Shown here: in pieces, positions 7,453-31,664 of the stretch | Position numbering within the stretch: position 1 is the stretch's first letter | Layout: each line of letters begins with the position of its first letter | DNA from: Candidatus Nitrotoga sp. 1052 | GTDB lineage: Bacteria; Pseudomonadota; Gammaproteobacteria; Burkholderiales; Gallionellaceae | Length of the DNA stretch: 34,484 nt | Direction: 5' to 3' | Assembly: GCF_927312905.1 (NCBI RefSeq) | Contig: NZ_CAKMHQ010000033.1 | Span: 1 to 34,484, forward strand | Made by a program: the position numbers and the translations under genes | The notes under the pieces: model-generated | Seen by the model: only the letters and a program-made list of their open reading frames with translations | What the model was told of the DNA's origin: nothing | The model's database searches: none

Positions 7453-8610
7453 TCAACGACAACCTTTAGTAGGCATGTCTCCGTTGATTCGTGAACAAAT
7501 ATTCGCCTGTACTGCTTCCAGGTAAGCCCCGGTTTCACGATAAATTGTATTGAGGATGGGGCTGACTTGCTCTTGAAGTACAGCTACTGACCTGAACTGC
7601 TGATCTGATCCAGAATTTGGCAATGTGGCTGCAATAGGTCTGAGCGCCTCTGCGACCTTGCGTATCCGTTGTTCAAGAGGCGGGTGAGTAGCTGACTTTC
7701 CGGGATACAAAACTGTACCTTTCTTGCGAGTTAAAACATCGCAAACAAAACGCTTAGCATTGCGCTCAACTTTTGATTTTGGGGTGGGGAATTCGGTCGG
7801 AACGAATGAAGGGTGTGGAGTAGGTTGACTAATGAATTCACGTGCGAGAGCTGTTTCTTGCCAAGAATTCGCCGCCAAGCTAAGTTGGTCCACGCTCCAA
7901 TAAACCGAGCCCTGTTCAGAAAATATTGGTTCCCGATAAGGTGGCAACGGCAACAATCGGGTAAGCACCTTTACTGCCATTGCGTCGGCCTCTTCCTCGT
8001 GCTTGGTGGAGACTGGATCACAGGAATCACGAAGAATCGACAATTTAATTGCAGTGTCATTCTTAAGATCGATATGTTCAACACGACCAGCGTATTCGCC
8101 AATTCGCCGTTGAAGGAGATGGCCGAGTTCATGGGCAAGTACATAAAGCAACGCAGGATGGTCCCGCCCTGAGCGTTGAGAGAGATCACCAAAAATCTTG
8201 ACCGCATCTGCAGAGCAACGGATCTCCATGTTATTAACTGCTACAACGACGCAGCCTCCTCGAACACTGAGATCATCAAGCTGCTCGTCTTTCCGAACCG
8301 GTGATTTCACGCACCCTTCTTGGGTCACGCCATCCATGGTCGCATCGGTCACGACATAGGCGGTGAGCGTGCGCGGTTCCGTGACAACAGTTGTTGGATT
8401 GACTGATACCTTGTCGAAAAGCAAGGGTTTACCTATGACAGCATAAGCCTTTGCTGCTGCGTTGAGAGCTCTTGAAACCTTGTCAGTCAAGTCATTATTC
8501 ATTCGACATTCAGGAACTAGTTCCGCAGATTGCGAGGTTGCTACTCCTGCCATCAGAAGACCACCGAAGATAGTGGTTTTCATTGGGTAAGCATGGAAAC
8601 GCATTTTCAA
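7453..8610 (-). CDS. secreted M48-like zinc metalloprotease
   Basis: A protein of up to 385 residues with an export signal (hydrophobic GGLLMAGVA run, cleavage near SQSA). The zinc site is HELGH (His160, Glu161, His164) and the third ligand is in KHEEEADAM (Glu205xxxAsp209), as in M48 peptidases. The M48-like tail motif HPPLEQRI is at about 325-335. The open frame begins with a TTG that overlaps the upstream stop (TTGA at 8607-8610). ATGs at 8604 and about 8583 are alternative starts, and the latter gives a cleaner signal peptide. It is coupled to the Het-C-like gene, so the pair probably acts together outside the cytoplasm. Confidence 0.75.
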   Translation of the reverse strand: MKMRFHAYPMKTTIFGGLLMAGVATSQSAELVPECRMNNDLTDKVSRALNAAAKAYAVIGKPLLFDKVSVNPTTVVTEPRTLTAYVVTDATMDGVTQEGCVKSPVRKDEQLDDLSVRGGCVVVAVNNMEIRCSADAVKIFGDLSQRSGRDHPALLYVLAHELGHLLQRRIGEYAGRVEHIDLKNDTAIKLSILRDSCDPVSTKHEEEADAMAVKVLTRLLPLPPYREPIFSEQGSVYWSVDQLSLAANSWQETALAREFISQPTPHPSFVPTEFPTPKSKVERNAKRFVCDVLTRKKGTVLYPGKSATHPPLEQRIRKVAEALRPIAATLPNSGSDQQFRSVAVLQEQVSPILNTIYRETGAYLEAVQANICSRINGDMPTKGCR

Positions 8611-19491: not shown

Positions 19492-19773
19492 ATGAACAAA
19501 TCCAATCTCAAAACCTACTCCGCAAGCCCGCAAGGATTTCATCGCGGTCACAATCTAACCTTGCTCGTTAATGGCGGAAGCAAGAGCTTCTTGCTTCAGG
19601 TTGTGTACGACCAACGCATCTTCGCAGGAGGGGTGGGCGCGACCATGGACATGTCGGTCATCGTTAAATTATTCAAGGAATCCTATTCCCAAGTCATACG
19701 CAAAAATATTGGTTTTGTGTCGATTTTTGCGTATGACTTGGGGCGGGATTTGCTGGGCAGCACTATAAAGTAA
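19492..19773 (+). CDS. hypothetical protein containing a long hairpin
   Basis: A 93-residue protein of unknown family, seven bases behind the DUF4143 ATPase and so probably in its transcript. A perfect 20-base inverted repeat lies inside the coding frame (19688-19707 with 19723-19742). The C-terminus may have been created by an element end. Its stop overlaps the convergent gene at 19763 by 11 bases. Confidence 0.4.
   Translation: MNKSNLKTYSASPQGFHRGHNLTLLVNGGSKSFLLQVVYDQRIFAGGVGATMDMSVIVKLFKESYSQVIRKNIGFVSIFAYDLGRDLLGSTIK
19688..19742. repeat. perfect 20-base inverted repeat
   Basis: The arm 19688-19707 is the exact reverse complement of 19723-19742, with a 15-base loop. The stem contains a run of A/T next to CCC/GGG ends. 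It lies between two convergent genes and could act as a bidirectional terminator, an element end or a recombination site. Confidence 0.7.
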
Positions 19774-20708: not shown

Positions 20709-20764
20709 TTGGCGGCTGACCAATCAAAACAAACAGAAGACGAGCAATCGTCATAACCACCCAG
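20709..20764 (+). repeat. duplicated upstream segment, copy 1
   Basis: The sequence from 20709 onward is repeated at 24760 with a single difference over about 60 bases, running into the leader RNA of the next gene. It contains a small hairpin GACGA-GCAA-TCGTC. A shorter trace (GGCGGCTGACC) is at 21975-21985. It may be a shared promoter or part of the regulatory unit. Confidence 0.7.
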
Positions 20765-20827
20765 CGGGGACATCGTTCCCCGCAAGGGTCATGTTGTCTC
20801 CATTTTATTTCAAAAAGGAGACACAAA
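20765..20827 (+). ncRNA. radC-motif-like leader, copy A (before RecE-like gene)
   Basis: GGGGACA (20766-20772) can pair with TGTCTCC (20795-20801), enclosing a CCC-GCAA-GGG hairpin (20779-20788) with a GNRA loop. CGGGGA can instead pair with TCCCCG (20777-20782), and TGTCTCC with GGAGACA (20817-20823), which contains the ribosome-binding site. The two folds exclude each other. It resembles the radC RNA motif known from 5' regions of DNA-related genes. Confidence 0.65.
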
Positions 20828-21640
20828 ATGAAACGCATTGTCAGAGACTTGCCTATACAGGTTTATCACGCCAGTGAGGCAATATCACACAGCGGGATTG
20901 TTCAACTACTCAAGTCCCCCGAACACTACCTGCAATACAAAACAGGATCAATCGAGCCAACGCCAGCAATGGAATTTGGTTCGGCATTCCACGGCTTTAT
21001 TCTTGAACCTGAGGTCTTTTCAAAAGATTATGTGCTCGCGCCAAAGTTCGACCGACGCACCAAGGAAGGCAAGGAAATAGCCGCAAAGTGGGATGCTGAA
21101 AATGCGGGCAAAACGCCATTAAGCGCAGAGCAGATGGACACACTTGCTGCAATGAGGGTAAGTGTTTTCAATCATGCGGGCGCAGCCAAAATGCTTGACG
21201 ATGGTGAAGCTGAGACATCTCTGTTTTGGACGGATGACTACACGGGATTGCCGTGCAGGATACGTCCGGACTGGATGAGCGAGTACGGTATGGCAGACCT
21301 TAAAAGCTGCTGTGGTGCGAGCAAAGACAGCTTCTCCAAAGCAATAGCCAATCTTGGCTATGACGTGCAGGCCGCTTTTTACACTGACGGCATGAAGGCG
21401 GTGACTGGAAAGTCAGTCAACTTTTACTTTATCGCAGTGGAAAAAAATGCACCGTATTCGACGGCTTGCTACATCGCCAGTCAACAAATGATCGAAGTAG
21501 GGCGTGCCAAGTATCGCGGCGCGCTTGAGTTGCTGAAATGGTGCCAGGAAAACAATCATTTTCCCGGCTATCAACCGAGCGGCGAGATTGAAAGTATCGA
21601 TCTTCCGCGCTGGGCAGCAAACTTCGATATCGAAGCGTAA
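20828..21640 (+). CDS. RecE-like PD-(D/E)XK exonuclease
   Basis: A 270-residue putative exodeoxyribonuclease VIII/RecE-type nuclease of the PDDEXK superfamily. The family signature FGSAFHGFILE carries His55 and Glu60. The metal site follows as RPDWM (Asp148), ADLK (Asp157, Lys159) and YDVQ (Gln181), the expected H-D-DxK-Q order. It would resect double-stranded ends to leave a 3' strand for the RecT-like partner encoded next but one. AAGGAGA before the ATG is part of the leader hairpin, so expression may depend on leader folding. Confidence 0.85.
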   Translation: MKRIVRDLPIQVYHASEAISHSGIVQLLKSPEHYLQYKTGSIEPTPAMEFGSAFHGFILEPEVFSKDYVLAPKFDRRTKEGKEIAAKWDAENAGKTPLSAEQMDTLAAMRVSVFNHAGAAKMLDDGEAETSLFWTDDYTGLPCRIRPDWMSEYGMADLKSCCGASKDSFSKAIANLGYDVQAAFYTDGMKAVTGKSVNFYFIAVEKNAPYSTACYIASQQMIEVGRAKYRGALELLKWCQENNHFPGYQPSGEIESIDLPRWAANFDIEA

Positions 21641-21652
21641 CAACAACCCTAT

Positions 21653-21714
21653 CGGGGACACTTCCCCGACCAGGGTTTGTGTCCCCTTTTTTATTTCAAA
21701 TGAGGAGACACAAA
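21653..21714 (+). ncRNA. radC-motif-like leader, copy B
   Basis: This is the clearest copy. GGGGACAC (21654-21661) pairs perfectly with GTGTCCCC (21679-21686), which is followed by six Ts, making an intrinsic-terminator shape. GGGGA can instead pair with TCCCC (21663-21667). GTGTCCCC can pair with GGAGACAC (21704-21711) with one mismatch, masking the ribosome-binding site. Confidence 0.7.
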
Positions 21715-21957
21715 ATGGGAATTTTTATCTTGTTAATGCTGGCGTGGGCGGTTTATTCGGCCATTCGAGCTGTGATGGTATGTATCAAACCACGCATGAG
21801 AGCAAAGCCTGCAACCAGGACTTCGGCAGCATCAATGACAAACGAGCCAAACTGGGCAGAGCTTGAGATACCCACATTCATTCGGCGCGGATTAGCCTTT
21901 CCTGTTCTGACTGAAAAGAAGAAGATGGTGCGAAAGAAAATTCAAGTTGCTGCGTAA
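21715..21957 (+). CDS. small membrane-anchored protein
   Basis: An 80-residue protein starting at ATG 21715 behind GAGGAGACAC. One N-terminal hydrophobic segment (about residues 3-23) is followed by a basic cytoplasmic tail. It lies between the RecE-like and RecT genes and has its own leader of the same type, which marks it as a member of the module. I recognise no family. Confidence 0.6.
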   Translation: MGIFILLMLAWAVYSAIRAVMVCIKPRMRAKPATRTSAASMTNEPNWAELEIPTFIRRGLAFPVLTEKKKMVRKKIQVAA

Positions 21958-22048
21958 TGCAGTGACGTGAAAAAGGCGGCTGACCTTGCCGAAAGGTAAA
22001 ACAGCATTAAGCATCGTTTCTGGCAACCGGTTCGATTCAAGCAATCCC

Positions 22049-22118
22049 ACGGGGACATCCTTTGTCCCTATGGGGCGTGGTGTCTCCGTTTTTTGTGTTA
22101 ACAAAAAGGAAAAACACC
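22049..22118 (+). ncRNA. radC-motif-like leader, copy C (before recT)
   Basis: CGGGGACATC (22050-22059) can pair over ten positions, including two G-T, with GGTGTCTCCG (22079-22088), followed by six Ts. The inner hairpin is CCC-TAT-GGG (22066-22074). GGTGT can alternatively pair with ACACC (22114-22118) just before the ATG, with TCC facing the GGA of the ribosome-binding site. Confidence 0.65.
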
Positions 22119-23174
22119 ATGTCATTACAAGCACTCAAAAACATCAATCGTACCGCCGCAGCCCAGAACGAGCAACCCCAAGGCTTCCCGGCAATGCTTG
22201 AACAGTTCAAGGGAGAAATCGCCCGCGCGCTGCCCAAGCACATCAATCCTGATCGCATGGCACGTATTGCGCTCACGGCGTTTCGCATGACCCCGAAGCT
22301 GGGTGAGTGCGATCCGCGTAGTGTGTTTGCTGCCGTCATCCAGTCCTCGCAACTTGGACTTGAAGTCGGGCTCATGGGCGAAGCTCACCTTGTCCCGTTT
22401 GGCAACCAATGCCAACTCATTCCGGGTTACACCGGATTGATGAAGCTGGCGCGTCAGAGTGGATTGGTACAGGACATCTATGCACACGAGGTACGCATGA
22501 ACGACACGTTCGCGCTAAAGCTCGGCATGGAACGAAGCCTGGAGCATGAACCGCTGACTGCACCGGGTGGCTTTCCCGCGTCTGATGAAGAACGCGGAGA
22601 GGTGGTTGGCTTCTATGCGGTAGGCGTTCTCAAAGATGATAGCAGGACGTTTGTCGCAATGGGCCGCAAAGAAGTTGAAAGCATCCGTGATGGCAGTCGC
22701 GGCTACCAGGCAGCCAAGAAGTACAAAAAGGAATCCGTCTGGGATACCGACTTTGTAGCGATGGGGCTGAAAACGGCCATTCGGCGCATCTGCAAGTTCT
22801 TGCCTAAATCACCCGAGCTGGCAACGGCACTGGCGATGGATGAAAAAGCGCATGCAGGGCAAGGTCAAAATCTGAATCTGAACGATGTGATCGACGGCAG
22901 TTACGCGCCGGTTGATGTCGTGGATGAGGCAGTGGAGATCAAAGAAAAAGCGCCCGGCAAAACCGAGAGCCAACCGCAATCGGCAAATGAACTGAGCAAA
23001 CTCGAAAAGCTGGACAAGGTTGTCGCGGCTTTGAAATCAGCCAGTACTGTTGAAGCATTGGATGAGATCTATATCCGTGCCGAAGTGGATCTGGAAGATG
23101 CGGAGCTTGAGGTCGCTCTGCGCGAGTATCGCACATGCAAAGACGCGATTATTGAACAAGGCAGCCTGGTTTAA
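22119..23174 (+). CDS. recT: RecT-family single-strand annealing protein
   Basis: A 351-residue RecT. The family core is visible: the helix with RMARIALTAFRMTP, then the SVFAAVIQSSQLGLEVG block, then GEAHLVPF and CQLIPGYTGLMKLARQSG. The later WDTDFVAMGLKTAIRRICKFLP segment completes the signature. RecT binds single strands exposed by RecE and anneals them, giving RecA-independent recombination. The acidic, Lys/Glu-rich C-terminus after about 270 is variable. The start ATG 22119 follows AAAAAGGA, and the longer frame back to 22062 would run through the leader. It forms a functional pair with the nuclease at 20828. Confidence 0.9.
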   Translation: MSLQALKNINRTAAAQNEQPQGFPAMLEQFKGEIARALPKHINPDRMARIALTAFRMTPKLGECDPRSVFAAVIQSSQLGLEVGLMGEAHLVPFGNQCQLIPGYTGLMKLARQSGLVQDIYAHEVRMNDTFALKLGMERSLEHEPLTAPGGFPASDEERGEVVGFYAVGVLKDDSRTFVAMGRKEVESIRDGSRGYQAAKKYKKESVWDTDFVAMGLKTAIRRICKFLPKSPELATALAMDEKAHAGQGQNLNLNDVIDGSYAPVDVVDEAVEIKEKAPGKTESQPQSANELSKLEKLDKVVAALKSASTVEALDEIYIRAEVDLEDAELEVALREYRTCKDAIIEQGSLV

Positions 23175-23183
23175 TCACTCTCA

Positions 23184-23260
23184 CGGGGACATCGTTCCTC
23201 TCTGGGAAATATCAGAAAGTCTGAGAGGATCGTTACGTCACAAAAATTATTGTCTCCGAG
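23184..23260 (+). ncRNA. divergent radC-motif-like leader, copy D
   Basis: CGGGGACA (23184-23191) can pair with TGTCTCCG (23251-23258) over eight positions. The interior is enlarged and contains a different stem, TCCTCTC (23196-23202) with GAGAGGA (23223-23229). There is no T-run and no clear ribosome-binding site before the ATG at 23261, so this copy may be decayed or work differently. Confidence 0.45.
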
Positions 23261-23404
23261 ATGAAAATGCTCGGTGGCAACAAGACGGATGGTGAGTCGC
23301 GCGTTGCAGCACCTGCTGCGTCCGCTGCTAACAAAGGCAAAACCACAATGGCAAAACCACAAAGACAGGCCCAAAGCCTGAATTTGACGATGGACTTTTT
23401 TTGA
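23261..23404 (+). CDS. possible 47-residue basic protein
   Basis: ATG 23261 to TGA 23404 gives 47 residues, rich in Ala, Lys and Gln, with an Ala-rich centre and ending MDFF. It sits exactly where a gene start is expected behind leader copy D. No ribosome-binding site is evident. It could be a true small protein or the scar of a larger gene. Confidence 0.3.
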   Translation: MKMLGGNKTDGESRVAAPAASAANKGKTTMAKPQRQAQSLNLTMDFF

Positions 23405-23430
23405 CGAGGGATCTTTCTAAAACTCAACCA

Positions 23431-23489
23431 CCCACCGGGGGAATCATCCCCCATGGGGTGCTTCTTTGCCGGTGGTTTTACAACCACCC
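23431..23489 (+). ncRNA. radC-motif-like leader, copy E1
   Basis: CCACCGG (23432-23438) pairs with CCGGTGG (23469-23475), followed by TTTT. The inner hairpin is formed by CCCC-AT-GGGG. GGTGGTT (23471-23477) can alternatively pair with AACCACC (23482-23488). The primary sequence differs from the other copies while the switch-like plan is kept. Confidence 0.5.
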
Positions 23490-23495
23490 GCCCAC

Positions 23496-23564
23496 ACGGG
23501 ACACACCTGAACATCCCGTTGGGTGCTCTGGTGTGTCCCGTGCGGGATATACCAAGGAGGCATC
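23496..23564 (+). ncRNA. radC-motif-like leader, copy E2 (before primase gene)
   Basis: ACGGGACACACC (23496-23507) pairs perfectly over 12 bases with GGTGTGTCCCGT (23530-23541), around a CCC-GTT-GGG hairpin. ACGGGA can instead pair with the nearer TCCCGT. TCCCG can also pair with the following CGGGA (23543-23547). Here the AAGGAGG ribosome-binding site is outside the stems. Compared with copy B the outer stem has paired changes, which supports a real RNA helix. Confidence 0.65.
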
Positions 23565-24632
23565 ATGGAAGCGAAAGAACTGAAGTTGTTGGCCGCAGGA
23601 CGCTGGGCAAATATTGTTGCGTCGCTCGCCCCGCATCTTGGTCAGGCAGTAGAGCGCACACCGAATCATGTGCCGTGCCCCGTGCATGGCGGGACAGATG
23701 GATTCCGGCTGTTTCGGGATTTTGATGCGACAGGCGGCGGTGTGTGCAACACATGCGGCATCCATCACGATGGATATACGCTACTCATGTGGGCGAATGG
23801 GTGGGATTTTCTCACTACCCACCGCGCCATACATGACATGTTATTGGGAAGCGGCGAGAGGCATTACACGCCCCTGCCAGTCAAAAAAGTGTGTGTCAAA
23901 AAAGAGGAGAACAGGCAAGACATTCGTGATTCTCTGAATCATGTGTGGAAAGCCAGCATTCCTCTGACCTCCCTCGAAGCGCGGGCAGCAAGGTTGTATT
24001 TTGCAAACCGTGGAATCGGGCAGATCGACTATCGAAAAATTGATAGCAAGGTGATCCGCTTTGTCCCTTCACTTGAGTATTTCGAAAAGGGAAAGCTGGT
24101 CAACACGTATCCCGCCATTGTCACGATGGTGTGCGATGCAAACGGTTGTCCTTCGACCGTTCATCGCACCTACATTGCACACGATGGCGCGAAAGCAAAT
24201 ATCCAATCACCCAAAAAAATGATGCGGCACTGCGCCGACAATTTATTTGGCGCGATGAGGATAGCGGTGCAGGGCAGCAGCAAGGTATTGGCAGTTACAG
24301 AGGGCATCGAAACAGCACTGGCCATCATAGGTGCTTTCAATGTGCCTGTATGGGCTGCTGGAAACGCCTACTTGCTGGAAAACTTCGTGCCGCCAAAAGG
24401 TGTTGATGTGGTGATCTATGCTGACAAAGACCGGCCTTCCATGATTCATCCAGAAGGTCACGGATTAAGTTCGGCGAAGTCACTGGTAAAACGCTTATGG
24501 AAAGAAGGCGTAAAGGCCAGCATCAAGCTACCTGACACAGATATTCCGCAAGGGATGAAATCTGTTGACTGGCTGGATGTTATCAATAGCAATGCCTATC
24601 AGGCAATCATCAAAAAATCTGCCGCACGGTAA
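23565..24632 (+). CDS. Toprim-domain primase-like protein
   Basis: A 355-residue protein with the plan of phage P4-type primase N-terminal parts. A zinc site is formed by CPVH (Cys38, His41) and CNTC (Cys61, Cys64). A central DUF7146-like region follows. The Toprim domain comes after about residue 250: the glutamate in AVTEGIETALAI and the DxD in VVIYADKDRP. It probably makes primers for the island's own replication or repair; no helicase domain is attached. The start at 23565 has AAGGAGG five bases upstream. It is followed by a terminator and then by radC. Confidence 0.82.
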   Translation: MEAKELKLLAAGRWANIVASLAPHLGQAVERTPNHVPCPVHGGTDGFRLFRDFDATGGGVCNTCGIHHDGYTLLMWANGWDFLTTHRAIHDMLLGSGERHYTPLPVKKVCVKKEENRQDIRDSLNHVWKASIPLTSLEARAARLYFANRGIGQIDYRKIDSKVIRFVPSLEYFEKGKLVNTYPAIVTMVCDANGCPSTVHRTYIAHDGAKANIQSPKKMMRHCADNLFGAMRIAVQGSSKVLAVTEGIETALAIIGAFNVPVWAAGNAYLLENFVPPKGVDVVIYADKDRPSMIHPEGHGLSSAKSLVKRLWKEGVKASIKLPDTDIPQGMKSVDWLDVINSNAYQAIIKKSAAR

Positions 24633-24673
24633 GCAGCTCAGTCTCATGGACATGCCTGCCCAAGGTGGTTTTA

Positions 24674-24693
24674 CCTCGCTTGCGGGGCTTTTT
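24674..24693 (+). terminator. intrinsic terminator after primase gene
   Basis: CCTCG (24674-24678) pairs with CGGGG (24683-24687), with one G-T pair and a four-base loop, followed by CTTTTT. It ends the primase transcript 40 bases after the stop, so radC must have its own promoter, probably within the duplicated segment at 24760. Confidence 0.6.
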
Positions 24694-24759
24694 ATGACGC
24701 ATTCGATGAGTGCGCCATAAAAAGAGAATTCATTCTCATGGCTATGCCTTGAGTTGAAA

Positions 24760-24815
24760 TTGGCGGCTGACCAATCAAAACAAACAGAAGACGAGCAATC
24801 GTCATAACTACCCAG
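24760..24815 (+). repeat. duplicated upstream segment, copy 2
   Basis: This nearly exact copy of 20709-20764 includes the GACGA-GCAA-TCGTC hairpin. Placement directly before leader copy F repeats the arrangement in front of the RecE-like gene, so the unit of duplication is regulatory (promoter plus leader) and not coding. Confidence 0.7.
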
Positions 24816-24873
24816 CGGGGACACGTCCCCGCCAAGGGTTTGTGTCCCTTTCTTTATTTAAAGGAGACACAAA
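24816..24873 (+). ncRNA. radC-motif-like leader, copy F (before radC)
   Basis: GGGGACAC (24817-24824) pairs with GTGTCCC and the following T (24842-24849), then a TTCTTT run. CGGGGA can instead pair with TCCCCG (24826-24831), and GTGTC with GACAC of the GGAGACAC ribosome-binding segment (24863-24870). This is the position after which the radC RNA motif was named. Confidence 0.7.
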
Positions 24874-25473
24874 ATGAATATCCAAAATTGCAGCACACCT
24901 GACTTGTTGTCCGTACTGGTTGGAAAAAGGATGGCTAAAAAGCTATCACAAGTTCCACTTTCCGTTTTATTTGGAATGCGTGCAAATCGTCAGGAAATGG
25001 TTTGCGAAAATGAAGCTCCGTATGTGCCCGCACCTATCATCTCGGCAGCCAAGGAGTTGTTTGTGCGCGCACTCGAAGAGGACATCCACAACCACCCCGT
25101 ATCCTTTACTGCACCACAGGTGGTCAAGGATTACTTGAGGCTGGTATTAGGTGGACGGCAGCAGGAAGTATTTATGGTGCTGTTTCTAGATGCACAGCAT
25201 CGTCTTATCGCTTCGGAAGAGCTATTTCACGGAACGCTGACACAAACCAGTGTGTATCCACGCGAGGTTGTCAAACGCGCCTTGATTCACAACGCGGCAG
25301 CGGTAATGCTGAGCCACAACCATCCTTCAGGGGTGGCAGAGCCCAGCAGTGCCGACCGCTCGCTAACTGAAGCACTAAAGCAAGCGCTTGGATTGGTAGA
25401 TGTTCGAGTTCTCGATCACATTGTGATCGGCGAGCAAGAGGCATTGTCTTTTGCCGAACGAGGTTTGATATGA
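24874..25473 (+). CDS. radC: RadC/MPN+ JAMM-domain protein
   Basis: A 199-residue RadC-type protein lacking the longer N-terminal helix-hairpin-helix region of chromosomal RadC. The JAMM metalloprotease-like site is complete: SHNHPSG then PSSAD, giving His148, His150, Ser152 and Asp161, with Glu115 or Glu116 upstream. Island and plasmid RadC copies are common; their biochemical role is unsettled. The stop overlaps the start of the zinc-ribbon gene (ATGA at 25470). Confidence 0.9.
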
Positions 25474-25727
25474 GTGTGCCATTTCTGAAAAGATGGAAAA
25501 AAAAGGTGTATTGCGATCAATGCAACTCGTCCTGGAAATTTATGCATTCCGATGTGTACAACGCAAAGGAATGTCCTGTTTGCAAACGAGAGCAGGACCT
25601 TGCTGATCTGGCTAAACATACTGTTGATGCCATCATCAAGCGGCTCGATACACCGCAGGCAATACTGGAAGCCTATGTGGAAATTTATTTGGTAAATCGA
25701 AAAGCACATTTGGCGTATCAAAATTAG
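25470..25727 (+). CDS. small zinc-ribbon protein
   Basis: An 85-residue protein with two CxxC knuckles, CDQC (about 15-18) and CPVC (about 35-38), that should bind one zinc, followed by a helical tail. Start and stop overlap with radC (ATGA) suggests coupled translation and possibly a joint function in DNA transactions. No further family is recognised. Confidence 0.65.
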
Positions 25728-25744
25728 AGATTTTTTCAACCTCA

Positions 25745-25807
25745 GCGGGGGTACCTTCCCGCAAGGGGCATGGTGTCTCCGTTTTTTTTCATGAATAGGA
25801 GAACACC
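25745..25807 (+). ncRNA. radC-motif-like leader, copy G (before ardC)
   Basis: CGGGGGTACC (25746-25755) pairs over ten positions, with three G-T, with GGTGTCTCCG (25772-25781), then eight Ts. The inner hairpin is CCC-GCAA-GGG (25758-25767). GGTGTCTCC can instead pair with GGAGAACACC (25798-25807), which contains the ribosome-binding site, with one bulged A. GCGGG and CCCGC offer the short alternative stem. Confidence 0.7.
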
Positions 25808-26662
25808 ATGCAAGAAAAATCAAATCGCGCCAACTGGGGCAAATTGTTTTCGGATGCCCTTTCCTGCCCAGGAAAGGTTTCTGAGGCGTACTCGGTATTT
25901 CATGATTACAGCCTTGGCAATGCCATCCTCGCTGCTATGCAATTAACCGTCAAGGGGCTGCCACTGTCTCCGATCGCTTCCTTCAATAAATGGAAACAAT
26001 TGGGGCGATGCGTGAAGAAAGGCGAGAAGGCAATAGCATTGGTCATGCCTGTTACCGTCAAAGCCAAGTCCAATGATGAGGTTGAAAACGGTGCTGGATC
26101 CAATGACAACACCAAGGAAGTCAGAAGTTCAGGACGTACGATGTTTGTGCTGAAAAACAACTGGTTTTCTTTGGATCAAACAGAGGGCGCGGACTACATC
26201 AACGAAGTGATGATTCCAGAGTGGAACAAGGAGCAGGCCTTGTTCGGTCTGGGAATCACGGAACAACGTTTTGAGTTGATGGATGGAAACACGCAAGGGT
26301 ATTCCATTCCCAACAAGAAACAGATTTCCGTGTCTCCCGTAGCGCTGATGCCGTGGAAGACGATTTTCCACGAAATGGCTCACTGCCTGATGCACTCGAA
26401 AGAGGCGCAGATGGCGGACGGCGATTTGATGCAGAAAGACATCAAGGAGGCCGAAGCGGAAGCGGTGGCTTATCTGTGTTGTGCAACACTTGGATTGCCG
26501 GGGCTTGAAGAAAGTCGTGACTACATTCAGGGCTGGCTGGGTTCAAAGGAGAGATCCGATGAATTCAGCAAAAAAAGCGCATCACGGGTTTTTTCAGCAG
26601 CCGACAAGATACTTAAAGCAGGCACTCAATCTGCGAAAGCAGGGGAGGTGTGTCATAAGTAA
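25808..26662 (+). CDS. ardC: ArdC-family anti-restriction protein
   Basis: A 284-residue ArdC. The N-terminal single-strand DNA-binding domain contains WGKLFSDAL, then ASFNKWKQLGRCVKKGEKAI. The C-terminal zinc metallopeptidase-like domain has FHEMAHCL (His188, Glu189, His192) and a later EAEAEAVAY helix supplying the third ligand. ArdC protects incoming DNA during conjugation. It is the last recognisable member of the leader-controlled module. A second frame with its own AAAGGAGAG starts inside the gene at 26559. Confidence 0.88.
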   Translation: MQEKSNRANWGKLFSDALSCPGKVSEAYSVFHDYSLGNAILAAMQLTVKGLPLSPIASFNKWKQLGRCVKKGEKAIALVMPVTVKAKSNDEVENGAGSNDNTKEVRSSGRTMFVLKNNWFSLDQTEGADYINEVMIPEWNKEQALFGLGITEQRFELMDGNTQGYSIPNKKQISVSPVALMPWKTIFHEMAHCLMHSKEAQMADGDLMQKDIKEAEAEAVAYLCCATLGLPGLEESRDYIQGWLGSKERSDEFSKKSASRVFSAADKILKAGTQSAKAGEVCHK

Positions 26663-26813: not shown

Positions 26814-27018
26814 AAGCCTCTGGTAACAGAGGGCCTACGGCTAGACTGGAGGAGCCGGAAGTTCCGAAGGTGGCTGTAGGTGCCTTTGGCAGACAGGCGA
26901 CACGTCGAACGGGACGAAGCTTGCTGGGGAAGCCCAGTAGTCAGGAAACACCGGATACGTGATCTTTACGTCCGGTGTTGTGGGAGGACGGCAGGGGTGA
27001 CCCTGCCGCCTACTTGAT
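26811..27018 (+). ncRNA. group II intron-like 3' end, no reverse transcriptase
   Basis: The segment is dense in stems, starting with CCTCTG-GTAA-CAGAGG (26817-26832). AACACCGGA (26947-26955) pairs with TCCGGTGTT (26971-26979), with CG before the 3' strand, as in domain V. GGCAGGG-GTGA-CCCTGCC (26990-27007) with a flanking GGGAGG/CCTAC helix and an unpaired A at 27012, ending GAT at 27018, fits domain VI. The upper part of the domain V stem pairs poorly. No intron-encoded protein or clear 5' end is present, so this is a fragment or an unusual relic. Confidence 0.4.
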
Positions 27019-30284: not shown

Positions 30285-31664
30285 ATGGCTGCGCCCGACA
30301 CCCTCATTCAACTGCTACGTGAAGGCTCGCAGCCAGCCAGAGTGCTATACGAGCGGCTAGGTGTCAGTCAGCCTACGCTTTCGCGCATGGTTGCGCAGCT
30401 TGGAGTATCCATTCTCCGTTTCGGCAAAGCTCGCCAGACCCAATATGCGCTGCGGCGCAAAATTGGCGCACACGACAAGTTTCCGCTGTTCCATATCAGC
30501 GCAACTGGCAACCTCGAACAATGGGGAATCCTCCATCCTGTGATGCCCGAATCCTATCTGGTCGAAACCCTGGCGAACCATGCCGATGAACTGAAGATGG
30601 ATTTTCACCAAGGGCTGCCCTGGTATTTGCAGGACATGCGGCCACAAGGCTTTCTTGGTCGTGCATTTGCCCGGTTTCATGGCCCGTTGCTGGGTCTGCC
30701 TACCGATCCCAATCGATGGAGCGACGACCAAACTTTACTGGCATTGGCCAACACGGGGCACGACTGTCCGGGCAATCTGCTGGTCGGCGAAGAAGCCGCT
30801 TCGATATATCAGACCGGCGCACTTTTTACTACGGTGGACAGGGCATTGCCGCCGGTGCCTGCCGATCAACGTTTGCAGAAATATCCTGAATTCGCGCGCC
30901 TCGCCTTGGCGGGCGAGGTGGTGGGCTCCTCGGCTGGCGGCGAGCAACCCAAGTTCGATATTGAAATCCTGCACGACGGCCAACCGGTTCATGTCATGGT
31001 CAAATTTAGCGCGCCGCAGGACAACGCCGCGACGCGCCGCTGGCGCAGCCTGTTGATCTGCGAACACCTGGCCTTTCAAGCGCTGAATGGGGTGCTGCCG
31101 ACCAGCCATAGCCATTTACTGGAGGTTGAAACAGGCGGGGTGGCTAAACAACTATTTCTGGAGGTGCCACGCTTTGACCGCATTGGCGAGCGTGGCCGCC
31201 GTTGCGTGGTTTCGCTCAAGGCGCTCGATGATGAGTTTGCCGGGCTGGCTGCCGATTGGCCTAAGATTGCCGCCGCACTCGTACAGTCCGGGCACCTGAA
31301 TGAAACTGCCTATCTGCAAGTGCAAAAGTTGTTTGCCTTTGGCGTGCTCATCGGTAATAGCGATATGCACCCCGGCAATCTCTCATTCTTTGTCGATGAT
31401 GTGACCAAACATGTGCCAGAGTTTACGCTTGCGCCCCTGTACGACATGCTGCCCATGTCATTGGCACCACGCCCCTCCGGGCAAATCCCCGATGCGTTGC
31501 CGATGCCCAAAATAGGTATCAATCCACCCTTGGCAATTTGGCGGGAAATGTTGCCCTTGGCGTGCGACTACTGGCGGCAAGTAGTGGCGCACCCCGGCGT
31601 GGCAAACGATGTAAAACAAATGGCGCAGAACCAGGCAGACATCCTGGCCCGTCCCTTAACATGA
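30285..31664 (+). CDS. yjjJ: HipA-family kinase, YjjJ type
   Basis: A 459-residue HipA-fold serine/threonine kinase with a built-in N-terminal winged helix-turn-helix (residues 1-65: ARVLYERLGVSQPTLSRMVAQLG), the hallmark of YjjJ proteins, which lack a separate HipB. Kinase features include SAGGEQPKF (substrate/ATP loop), VMVKFS (ATP lysine strand), GNSDMHPGNLSF (catalytic loop with Asp and Asn) and LAPLYDMLPM (the metal-binding DFD-like motif). It may phosphorylate a translation factor or tRNA synthetase, as HipA does, but the target is unknown. Confidence 0.85.
   Translation: MAAPDTLIQLLREGSQPARVLYERLGVSQPTLSRMVAQLGVSILRFGKARQTQYALRRKIGAHDKFPLFHISATGNLEQWGILHPVMPESYLVETLANHADELKMDFHQGLPWYLQDMRPQGFLGRAFARFHGPLLGLPTDPNRWSDDQTLLALANTGHDCPGNLLVGEEAASIYQTGALFTTVDRALPPVPADQRLQKYPEFARLALAGEVVGSSAGGEQPKFDIEILHDGQPVHVMVKFSAPQDNAATRRWRSLLICEHLAFQALNGVLPTSHSHLLEVETGGVAKQLFLEVPRFDRIGERGRRCVVSLKALDDEFAGLAADWPKIAAALVQSGHLNETAYLQVQKLFAFGVLIGNSDMHPGNLSFFVDDVTKHVPEFTLAPLYDMLPMSLAPRPSGQIPDALPMPKIGINPPLAIWREMLPLACDYWRQVVAHPGVANDVKQMAQNQADILARPLT

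Follow-up and report, generated by a model that had tools for sequence, protein, structure and literature searches.

Leader RNAs with two predicted, mutually exclusive folds before the genes of a recombination and antirestriction module: a new RNA family and probable translational attenuators

A module of DNA-metabolism genes in Candidatus Nitrotoga sp. 1052 is accompanied by leader RNAs that are predicted to fold in two mutually exclusive ways. The contig concerned, NZ_CAKMHQ010000033.1, one whole stretch of the 3.23 Mb genome, was analysed over its full length of 34,484 nucleotides (nt; the window), and all window coordinates below are on its forward (+) strand. Six genes on this strand at 20.8-26.7 kb make up the module; these are a gene for a DUF3799 (RecE-like) nuclease, an 80-codon open reading frame (ORF), and the genes for RecT, a Toprim primase-like protein, RadC and an ArdC-like antirestriction protein. 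In the leaders before them, one arm is complementary both to an upstream arm and to the ribosome-binding site (RBS) of the gene. The leaders are a new, large RNA family, a single instance of which, that of bet, is already on record as an attenuator. Each leader probably acts in cis as a translational attenuator, by which the module would become a regulon controlled gene by gene.

Leaders of the window and their two predicted folds

At its 5′ end a leader has an ACCC box (P1-5′). Arm 1 and its pairing strand (arm 1′) come next, then a GGG (P1-3′) and arm 2; the 3′ part is arm 3, which extends from the Shine-Dalgarno (SD) sequence to the start region. Arm 2 is complementary to both arm 1 and arm 3. 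Fold A combines P1 with P2 (arm 1:arm 1′) and P3 (arm 2:arm 3), and fold B joins arm 1 to arm 2 around an inner CCC/GGG hairpin. In the ardC leader, for example, CATGGTGTCTCC pairs with GGAG-AACACCATG over the start codon in fold A, and CGGGGGTACC pairs with GGTGTCTCCG in fold B. A first-pass annotation of this sequence had described a GGGGACA-like arm, a CCC/GGG hairpin, a GTGTCYCC arm and a ribosome-binding segment as a shared plan, and all these parts are found where it had placed them; it had, however, drawn fold B alone and missed the RBS as the third arm.

Five leaders are canonical. They lie at 20757-20830 before the DUF3799 gene (leader 1; arm 1, 20766-20772; arm 2, 20795-20801; arm 3, the RBS, 20817-20823), at 21645-21717 before the 80-codon ORF (leader 2; 21654-21661, 21679-21686 and 21704-21717), at 22043-22121 before recT (leader 3; 22050-22060, 22079-22088 and 22108-22121), at 24808-24876 before radC (leader 4; 24818-24824, 24842-24848 and 24863-24876), and at 25738-25810 before ardC (leader 5; 25746-25755, 25772-25781 and 25798-25810, the last including the start). 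A covariance model, R1, was built from 24 leaders with fold B as its only structure. On the window it finds exactly these five places, at 42.8, 51.9, 42.6, 42.6 and 59 bits (range 42.6-59), all of which are training members and thus match by construction. No further R1 match was found in the same genome at E ≤ 1 among 150 of 274 candidates scored.

The structured repeats are real, and the pairing tests below place them beyond chance, but R1, the folds and an alignment to a single-strand-binding protein (SSB) resolve the eight leaders counted at first into five canonical leaders, one composite and one relic. The composite, at 23426-23567 before the Toprim gene, is recognized by its fold and its relatives and has no R1 match; arm 2 is at 23457-23468 and arm 3 with the RBS at 23553-23567. 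What had been taken for a second, separate leader, the hairpin from 23493, is an inserted long hairpin (about 23491-23546) that separates arm 2 from the RBS arm, and the whole folds as a single unit. The Toprim leaders of three relatives (stretches L004, L005 and L022) fold with a similar composite layout, and an inverted repeat (I1) was found at the composite of the window. The relic, at 23178-23405, again without an R1 match, joins a truncated leader to an SSB pseudogene, which has lost its N-terminal part and contains a frame change and an in-frame stop. One frame aligns to residues 81-126 of the SSB of plasmid pSTJ2 (L004) and another to the acidic tail. The supposed second arm of this copy is SSB coding sequence, and the 47-codon ORF (about 23261), once credited with a full leader, sits in the tail of the pseudogene.

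Leader-specific pairing and its distribution

Relatives of the module came to light in a distant DNA search: plasmid pSTJ2 of Sulfuricystis multivorans carries the module and a Simplicispira suum plasmid a part of it. Upstream of the genes on both plasmids the same leader plan is present in other letters, and it was later seen before many genes in a block of an IncC plasmid. The pairings were examined by scoring each arm 2 against its own arms and against arms permuted from other leaders, with arm 1:arm 3 as the control. In 42 hand-picked leaders (five from the window, seven each from L004 and L005, 14 from L006 and nine from L007), own arm 1:arm 2 pairs reach -13.7 kcal/mol and permuted ones -10.2 (z = -8.5; 0 of 50,000 permutations), and own arm 2:arm 3 pairs -13.5 against -9.4 kcal/mol (z = -11.0; 0 of 50,000); the control gives z = -0.1. 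The leaders of L004-L006 were picked by reading upstream of annotated genes, with Toprim genes and genes lacking a visible leader omitted, and those of L007 were taken by gene position. A first parse of all 45 leaders, in which the P2 helix was often wrong, had given z = -2.0 for arm 1:arm 2, -11.3 for arm 2:arm 3 and -0.2 for the control. Between the parses the starts of eight sequences were corrected and three of the 45 leaders, all among the 12 taken from L007, were dropped by hand; about four rows judged to be misparsed remain among the 42.

Two further sets were collected with R1, whose 24 training leaders are among these 42. At E ≤ 0.1 the model found 60 places in seven stretches of six relatives from the same order, which leaves 59 held-out matches after removal of one antisense overlap. 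In these, arm 2:arm 3, a helix absent from R1, reaches z = -8.8 (0 of 20,000) and arm 1:arm 2 z = -3.4 (8 of 20,000), with the control at +0.7. In 55 matches on L019-L022 (one antisense match dropped), z is -13.7 for arm 2:arm 3, -9.8 for arm 1:arm 2 and -2.3 for the control. Changes on both sides of a pair were counted for arm 1:arm 2 and the inner hairpin in an alignment of 58 matches that had itself been fitted to this structure; it holds 27 cells with two-sided changes against 6.4 after shuffling (0 of 500), 16 further pair types against 9.7 (0 of 500), and five pairs with two-sided change against 2.6 (10 of 500). RNAalifold, applied to a MAFFT alignment, returned only the arm 1:arm 2 state. 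The paired changes between copies that the first reading had pointed out are thus borne out by both the permutation tests and the counts. Two conserved helices that exclude each other share arm 2, the arrangement of an exclusive-fold switch, and since the arm letters differ across leaders yet match within each, each gene would have its own toggle.

These results also bear on the view that the repeats work as DNA, either as operators of a regulator or as hairpins of the incoming strand of the kind that form single-strand promoters in a leading region. Inverted repeats are present, and the module genes resemble what we take to be leading-region genes (ssb, recT/bet, exo, ardC, methylases). However, arm sequences vary between leaders on one plasmid with self-pairing kept, which speaks against one operator sequence; a single DNA operator is disfavoured on this ground. 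Moreover, the matches of a scan share one strand (24 of 24, 55 of 56, 69 of 69 and 49 of 51 in four scans), and arm 3 is the RBS itself. A role as DNA elements is therefore very improbable, and the leaders are treated below as RNA.

The leaders are numerous on plasmids of the IncC type, three of which, IncC or IncC-like, carry 24, 23 and 21 model matches. In 150 of the 158.6 kb of IncC pYULZMPS10, 24 R1 matches (E ≤ 1), eight of them training members, lie on one strand within one 27 kb block, with none in the tra-gene stretches. In 45 kb of IncC pSN254 (L022), which gave no training sequence, 21 of 23 matches end no more than 4 nt from annotated starts, and 34 kb of a Vibrio plasmid hold 21 sense matches, 20 at annotated starts, and one antisense match. 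Stretches of a Comamonas and a Halomonas plasmid have six and five R1 matches, and an E. coli record scanned with R1 has none. With IncC Bet as the query, at least one match (E ≤ 0.01) was found at 23 of 62 loci of named genomes, all 69 matches lying on the Bet strand. Genome searches gave matches in at least 15 of 300 genomes of the order of the window (E ≤ 1e-3) and in at least two of 398 genomes across the phylum (E ≤ 3e-4), both of them already known; these figures are lower bounds because filters were stricter and 12-17 candidates were scored per genome. Many leader scores of one stretch, L038, equal those of pSN254, and L038 may be an integrated IncC-type element; among the plasmid-sized records listed, none was recognized as SXT. 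In 20 kb of a radC-bearing Denitratisoma MOBF plasmid, no leader was seen by eye and none matched R1 at E ≤ 5. A scan of viral contigs with the RecT of the window, a single-sequence query that reaches close relatives only, found none, and a phage collection returned 39 records, all mycobacteriophages, the 20 listed of which match over at most 77 bases within recT. Among 72,556 plasmid records 909 hold the bet-exo query stretch, and among 5,426 E. coli genomes 88 hold exo; these numbers count the query and the gene and not leaders.

An ORF of at least 30 codons follows 103 of 114 model matches. None of 10 genes with an upstream gap shorter than 40 nt has a leader, a trivial result that carries no weight here, because such a gap is too short to hold one. 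Three model matches, at 8011 and 31740 on pSN254 and at 31316 on pVP7-1 (L020), have no annotated start at their end; unannotated small genes behind them are possible.

The module itself starts with the DUF3799 PD-(D/E)XK nuclease gene (20828-21640; Pfam, with an NCBIfam match under the cut-off of the model), which resembles the C-terminal part of exonuclease VIII, followed by the 80-codon ORF (21715-21957; no Pfam match), recT (22119-23174; Pfam RecT, 2.1e-40), the Toprim primase-like gene (23565-24632; Pfam Zn_Ribbon_Prim, DUF7146 and Toprim_3), radC (24874-25473; Pfam RadC, 4.5e-45) and the ardC-like gene (25808-26662; Pfam ArdcN, 1.7e-9). An intrinsic-terminator-like hairpin with a T-run stands 3′ of the Toprim gene (24674-24692), and an 85-codon ORF whose start overlaps the stop of radC is without a leader. 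Pfam identified no conjugation gene in the 30 window ORFs to which it was applied. Downstream of ardC, 26946-27018 weakly resembles a group II intron (23.3 bits; gathering threshold 40), and 3′ of it lies a 325-codon ORF without a Pfam match. On the other side of the module, a long near-perfect inverted repeat at 19668-19757 lies at the end of the ORF 19492-19773; a sub-threshold miRNA match is the sole report for it.

Proposed mechanism and competing readings

Folding calculations place the RBS in the P3 helix. In the minimum free energy (MFE) folds, 39 of 42, 53 of 59 and 50 of 55 leaders of the three sets contain at least 4 bp of arm 2:arm 3, and 3, 1 and 5 of them at least 5 bp of arm 1:arm 2. 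When the last 18 nt are held open, at least 5 bp of arm 1:arm 2 form in 30/42, 44/59 and 40/55. Opening the RBS costs a median of 7.6 kcal/mol in leader genes (n = 38) and 4.2 in tra-region genes (n = 34) of the same plasmids (p = 2.5e-4). As attenuation of bet is on record and the IncC bet leader is a model match, translational attenuation of each gene is the most likely function. In the ground state, A, the 5′ ACCC box would pair with the downstream GGG, arm 1 with the strand just 3′ of it, and arm 2 with the SD-to-start arm 3, and the ribosome would be excluded. In state B, arm 1 and arm 2 would pair, the strands so freed would close the inner CCC/GGG hairpin, and the RBS would be released. 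We infer that translation is truly repressed in this host and that the change from A to B is the switch.

Candidate triggers are a masking of the ACCC box, by a ribosome ending the upstream gene or by a trans-acting factor, and an element upstream of the leaders (U), alone or together. Masking of the box may free the GGG, thereby arm 1 and finally the RBS. The box is present in 99 of 114 model matches, although the model favours it, and the four positions before it hardly contain G (13 of 396 letters). By a rough rule, in which any frame open for at least 60 codons with its stop between 60 nt before and 25 nt after the leader start is counted, 75 of the 114 follow an ORF. The median distance from stop to box is 13 nt (quartiles 5.5 and 24), so a terminating ribosome could mask the box.

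The U element is a hairpin, TTGG-CGGCTGA-CCAA, with an A-rich tail ending in CAG; two identical copies lie at 20709-20736 and 24760-24787, and a third U-like element, AAGG-CGGCTGA-CCTT followed by CAGC, was seen by eye at 21973-22005 before the recT leader. It is also present in L004, L005, L007, L019, L020 and L022, where the loop is TAGCTGG (CGGCTGA in the window), followed by a AAACAAACAGC tail. By eye, its position is at the start of sub-operons, with terminator-like hairpins ahead of it and often a UUCG-type hairpin as well. In 16 hand-picked distinct copies the U stem has a covariation score of 0.469 against 0.127 after shuffling (0 of 500) and at most 0.123 in slid versions. All five pairs have two-sided changes, but 53 of 500 shuffles reach this count too; 60 of 500 reach the number of pair types, and 11 of the 16 copies leave the outermost pair open. 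Between loop and tail, GCTG and CAGC are 98% pairable. An H-type pseudoknot is possible but not proven, because both are nearly invariant.

T-runs and U elements together suggest another order of events, in which the leaders would be transcription attenuators first: arm 1:arm 2 with its T-run would form an intrinsic terminator, overcome by processive antitermination loaded at U, in the manner of the put, nut and ops sites. A T-run of at least 4 nt follows arm 2 within 10 nt in 36 of 59 leaders of order relatives and in 4/5 window leaders; U elements stand, by eye, at sub-operon heads after terminator-like hairpins, one of which was scored in the window, and the U stem covaries. Against this, the T-run, first described as usual, is found in just 4 of 23 leaders of pSN254, where arm 2:arm 3 is kept; U elements precede some leaders only; and no antitermination factor was identified, none having been searched for. 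Transcription attenuation as the primary function is thus unlikely. Within translational attenuation, the T-runs of the order relatives suggest an added termination step: since they often come after arm 2, state B may terminate transcription there unless the RNA polymerase is termination-resistant.

Several observations weigh against a translational switch of this kind. On average, the best fold that leaves the RBS open lies 8-10 kcal/mol above state A, and B therefore needs help or co-transcriptional trapping. Even with the RBS held open, 12/42, 15/59 and 15/55 leaders form no 5 bp of arm 1:arm 2, and the IncC bet leader itself behaves likewise. An opening cost of at least 6 kcal/mol is also found for 13 of 34 tra-region genes, as compared with 29 of 38 leader genes, so that occlusion alone is not special; the distinctive feature is the leader-specific double pairing and not the occlusion of the RBS. 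As for that pairing, the set of 42 was chosen by eye, the held-out arm 1:arm 2 pairs were selected by the very model that found them and reach a z of just -3.4, and the arm 1:arm 3 control is mildly significant in the L019-L022 set (225 of 20,000). Finally, 16 of 55 genes with an upstream gap of at least 40 nt, in two blocks, have no model match.

Translational attenuation may, tentatively, be carried one step further. An establishment and recombination operon of the IncC type might be run after transcription by some 20 private toggles that answer one shared signal simultaneously, at the single-stranded ACCC box and/or a U pseudoknot, and the differing arms would prevent cross-pairing between neighbours on one long mRNA; the regulon would be parallel and self-insulated.

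Comparison with known RNA families and attenuators

Rfam 15 gave no match over the whole window at gathering thresholds. Scans at these thresholds (window, L019, L021, L028, L029 and L031) and permissive scans (18-28 kb of the window, L004, L005, L020 and L022) assigned no leader to an Rfam family; L006, L007 and L032-L035 were outside them. The first-pass annotation had taken the leaders for the radC motif. They share with radC RNA (RF01754) the placement before radC and other DNA genes, where we take that motif to occur in Proteobacteria, but do not fit its covariance model: the search gave no match at E ≤ 1 in 18-28 kb and nothing at E ≤ 10 on the contig, and the best hit of the genome, on another contig, scores 14.7 bits against a gathering threshold of 40. 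The absence of matches thus rules out that the leaders are the Rfam radC motif. The radC RNA appears in a table of PMC2864571. That identity falls from the regulon proposed on one island; what the results support is that most genes of one DNA-metabolism module of a mobile type are marked by a conserved RNA leader.

DUF3085 RNA (RF02959) comes closer. Its model covers CGGUAGCUGG...CCAGC and ends at CAACCC..CGGG, which corresponds to the U element plus the first leader bases, and is without arms 2 and 3. One sub-threshold match on L005 (27.7 bits; gathering 40.6) spans just these parts; the window has none, and the best hit of its genome, on another contig with 150 of 343 candidates scored, reaches 15.2 bits. 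On pVP7-1, a DUF3085 gene has a leader (25448-25516), at which DUF3085 RNA has no match at E ≤ 0.5. That the leaders are distant or variant members of the radC or DUF3085 families would agree with the similar theme of gene neighbourhoods and with the match on L005; as there is no radC match, no DUF3085 match at E ≤ 0.5 in L020, with its leader-bearing DUF3085 gene, or in L022, and a DUF3085 model that stops at the first leader bases, such a kinship is hardly to be expected.

Among the top-ranked papers under open licence, no description of the leader family was found. The portions available of PMC12826799 concern the DUF3085 protein only, those of PMC4207636 do not contain 'leader', 'untranslated' or 'terminator', and those of PMC2786100 do not contain 'attenuator'. 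The nearest published element is described in a passage of a review, according to which a strong translational attenuator lies upstream of bet in SXT and also in IncA/C plasmids, SXT bet translation is repressed without loss of transcript, and bet/exo can be transcribed yet poorly expressed (PMC4542580, citing Garriss et al., 2013). The IncC bet leader (L022, 11121-11200), a model match from outside the training set, belongs to the same gene and the same type of element; its P3 pairs the SD and the start codon (CATGGTGT with ACACCATG over the start codon), and the published attenuator is presumably this same hairpin. A hairpin that pairs the SD and start region with an upstream segment, as in bet, recurs in the predicted MFE folds. 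The passage describes the attenuator for bet only, whereas the leader family precedes most genes of the block and has an alternative arm and variable, self-matched sequences.

PMC4207636 describes IncA/C plasmids as a substantial danger in the dissemination of resistance and reports a mapping of AcaCD, the transcriptional activator of these plasmids. If the proposed attenuation is true, a second, post-transcriptional layer would lie over ssb, bet/exo, methyltransferases, radC, ardC and many unknown genes, and would explain genes that are transcribed yet poorly expressed, as the review states for bet/exo. Leaders with no annotated gene behind them may in turn point to missed small genes.

The trp leader is an attenuator with exclusive hairpins, and the expression platforms of riboswitches work likewise. 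The leaders resemble them in that one arm picks between two partners and the RBS is thereby hidden or exposed; neither an upstream ORF inside a leader nor an aptamer-like core was noticed, without a systematic test. The U element might be such an aptamer. Unlike attenuators of the trp type, over 20 of the leaders can stand on a single plasmid, with arm letters individual to each.

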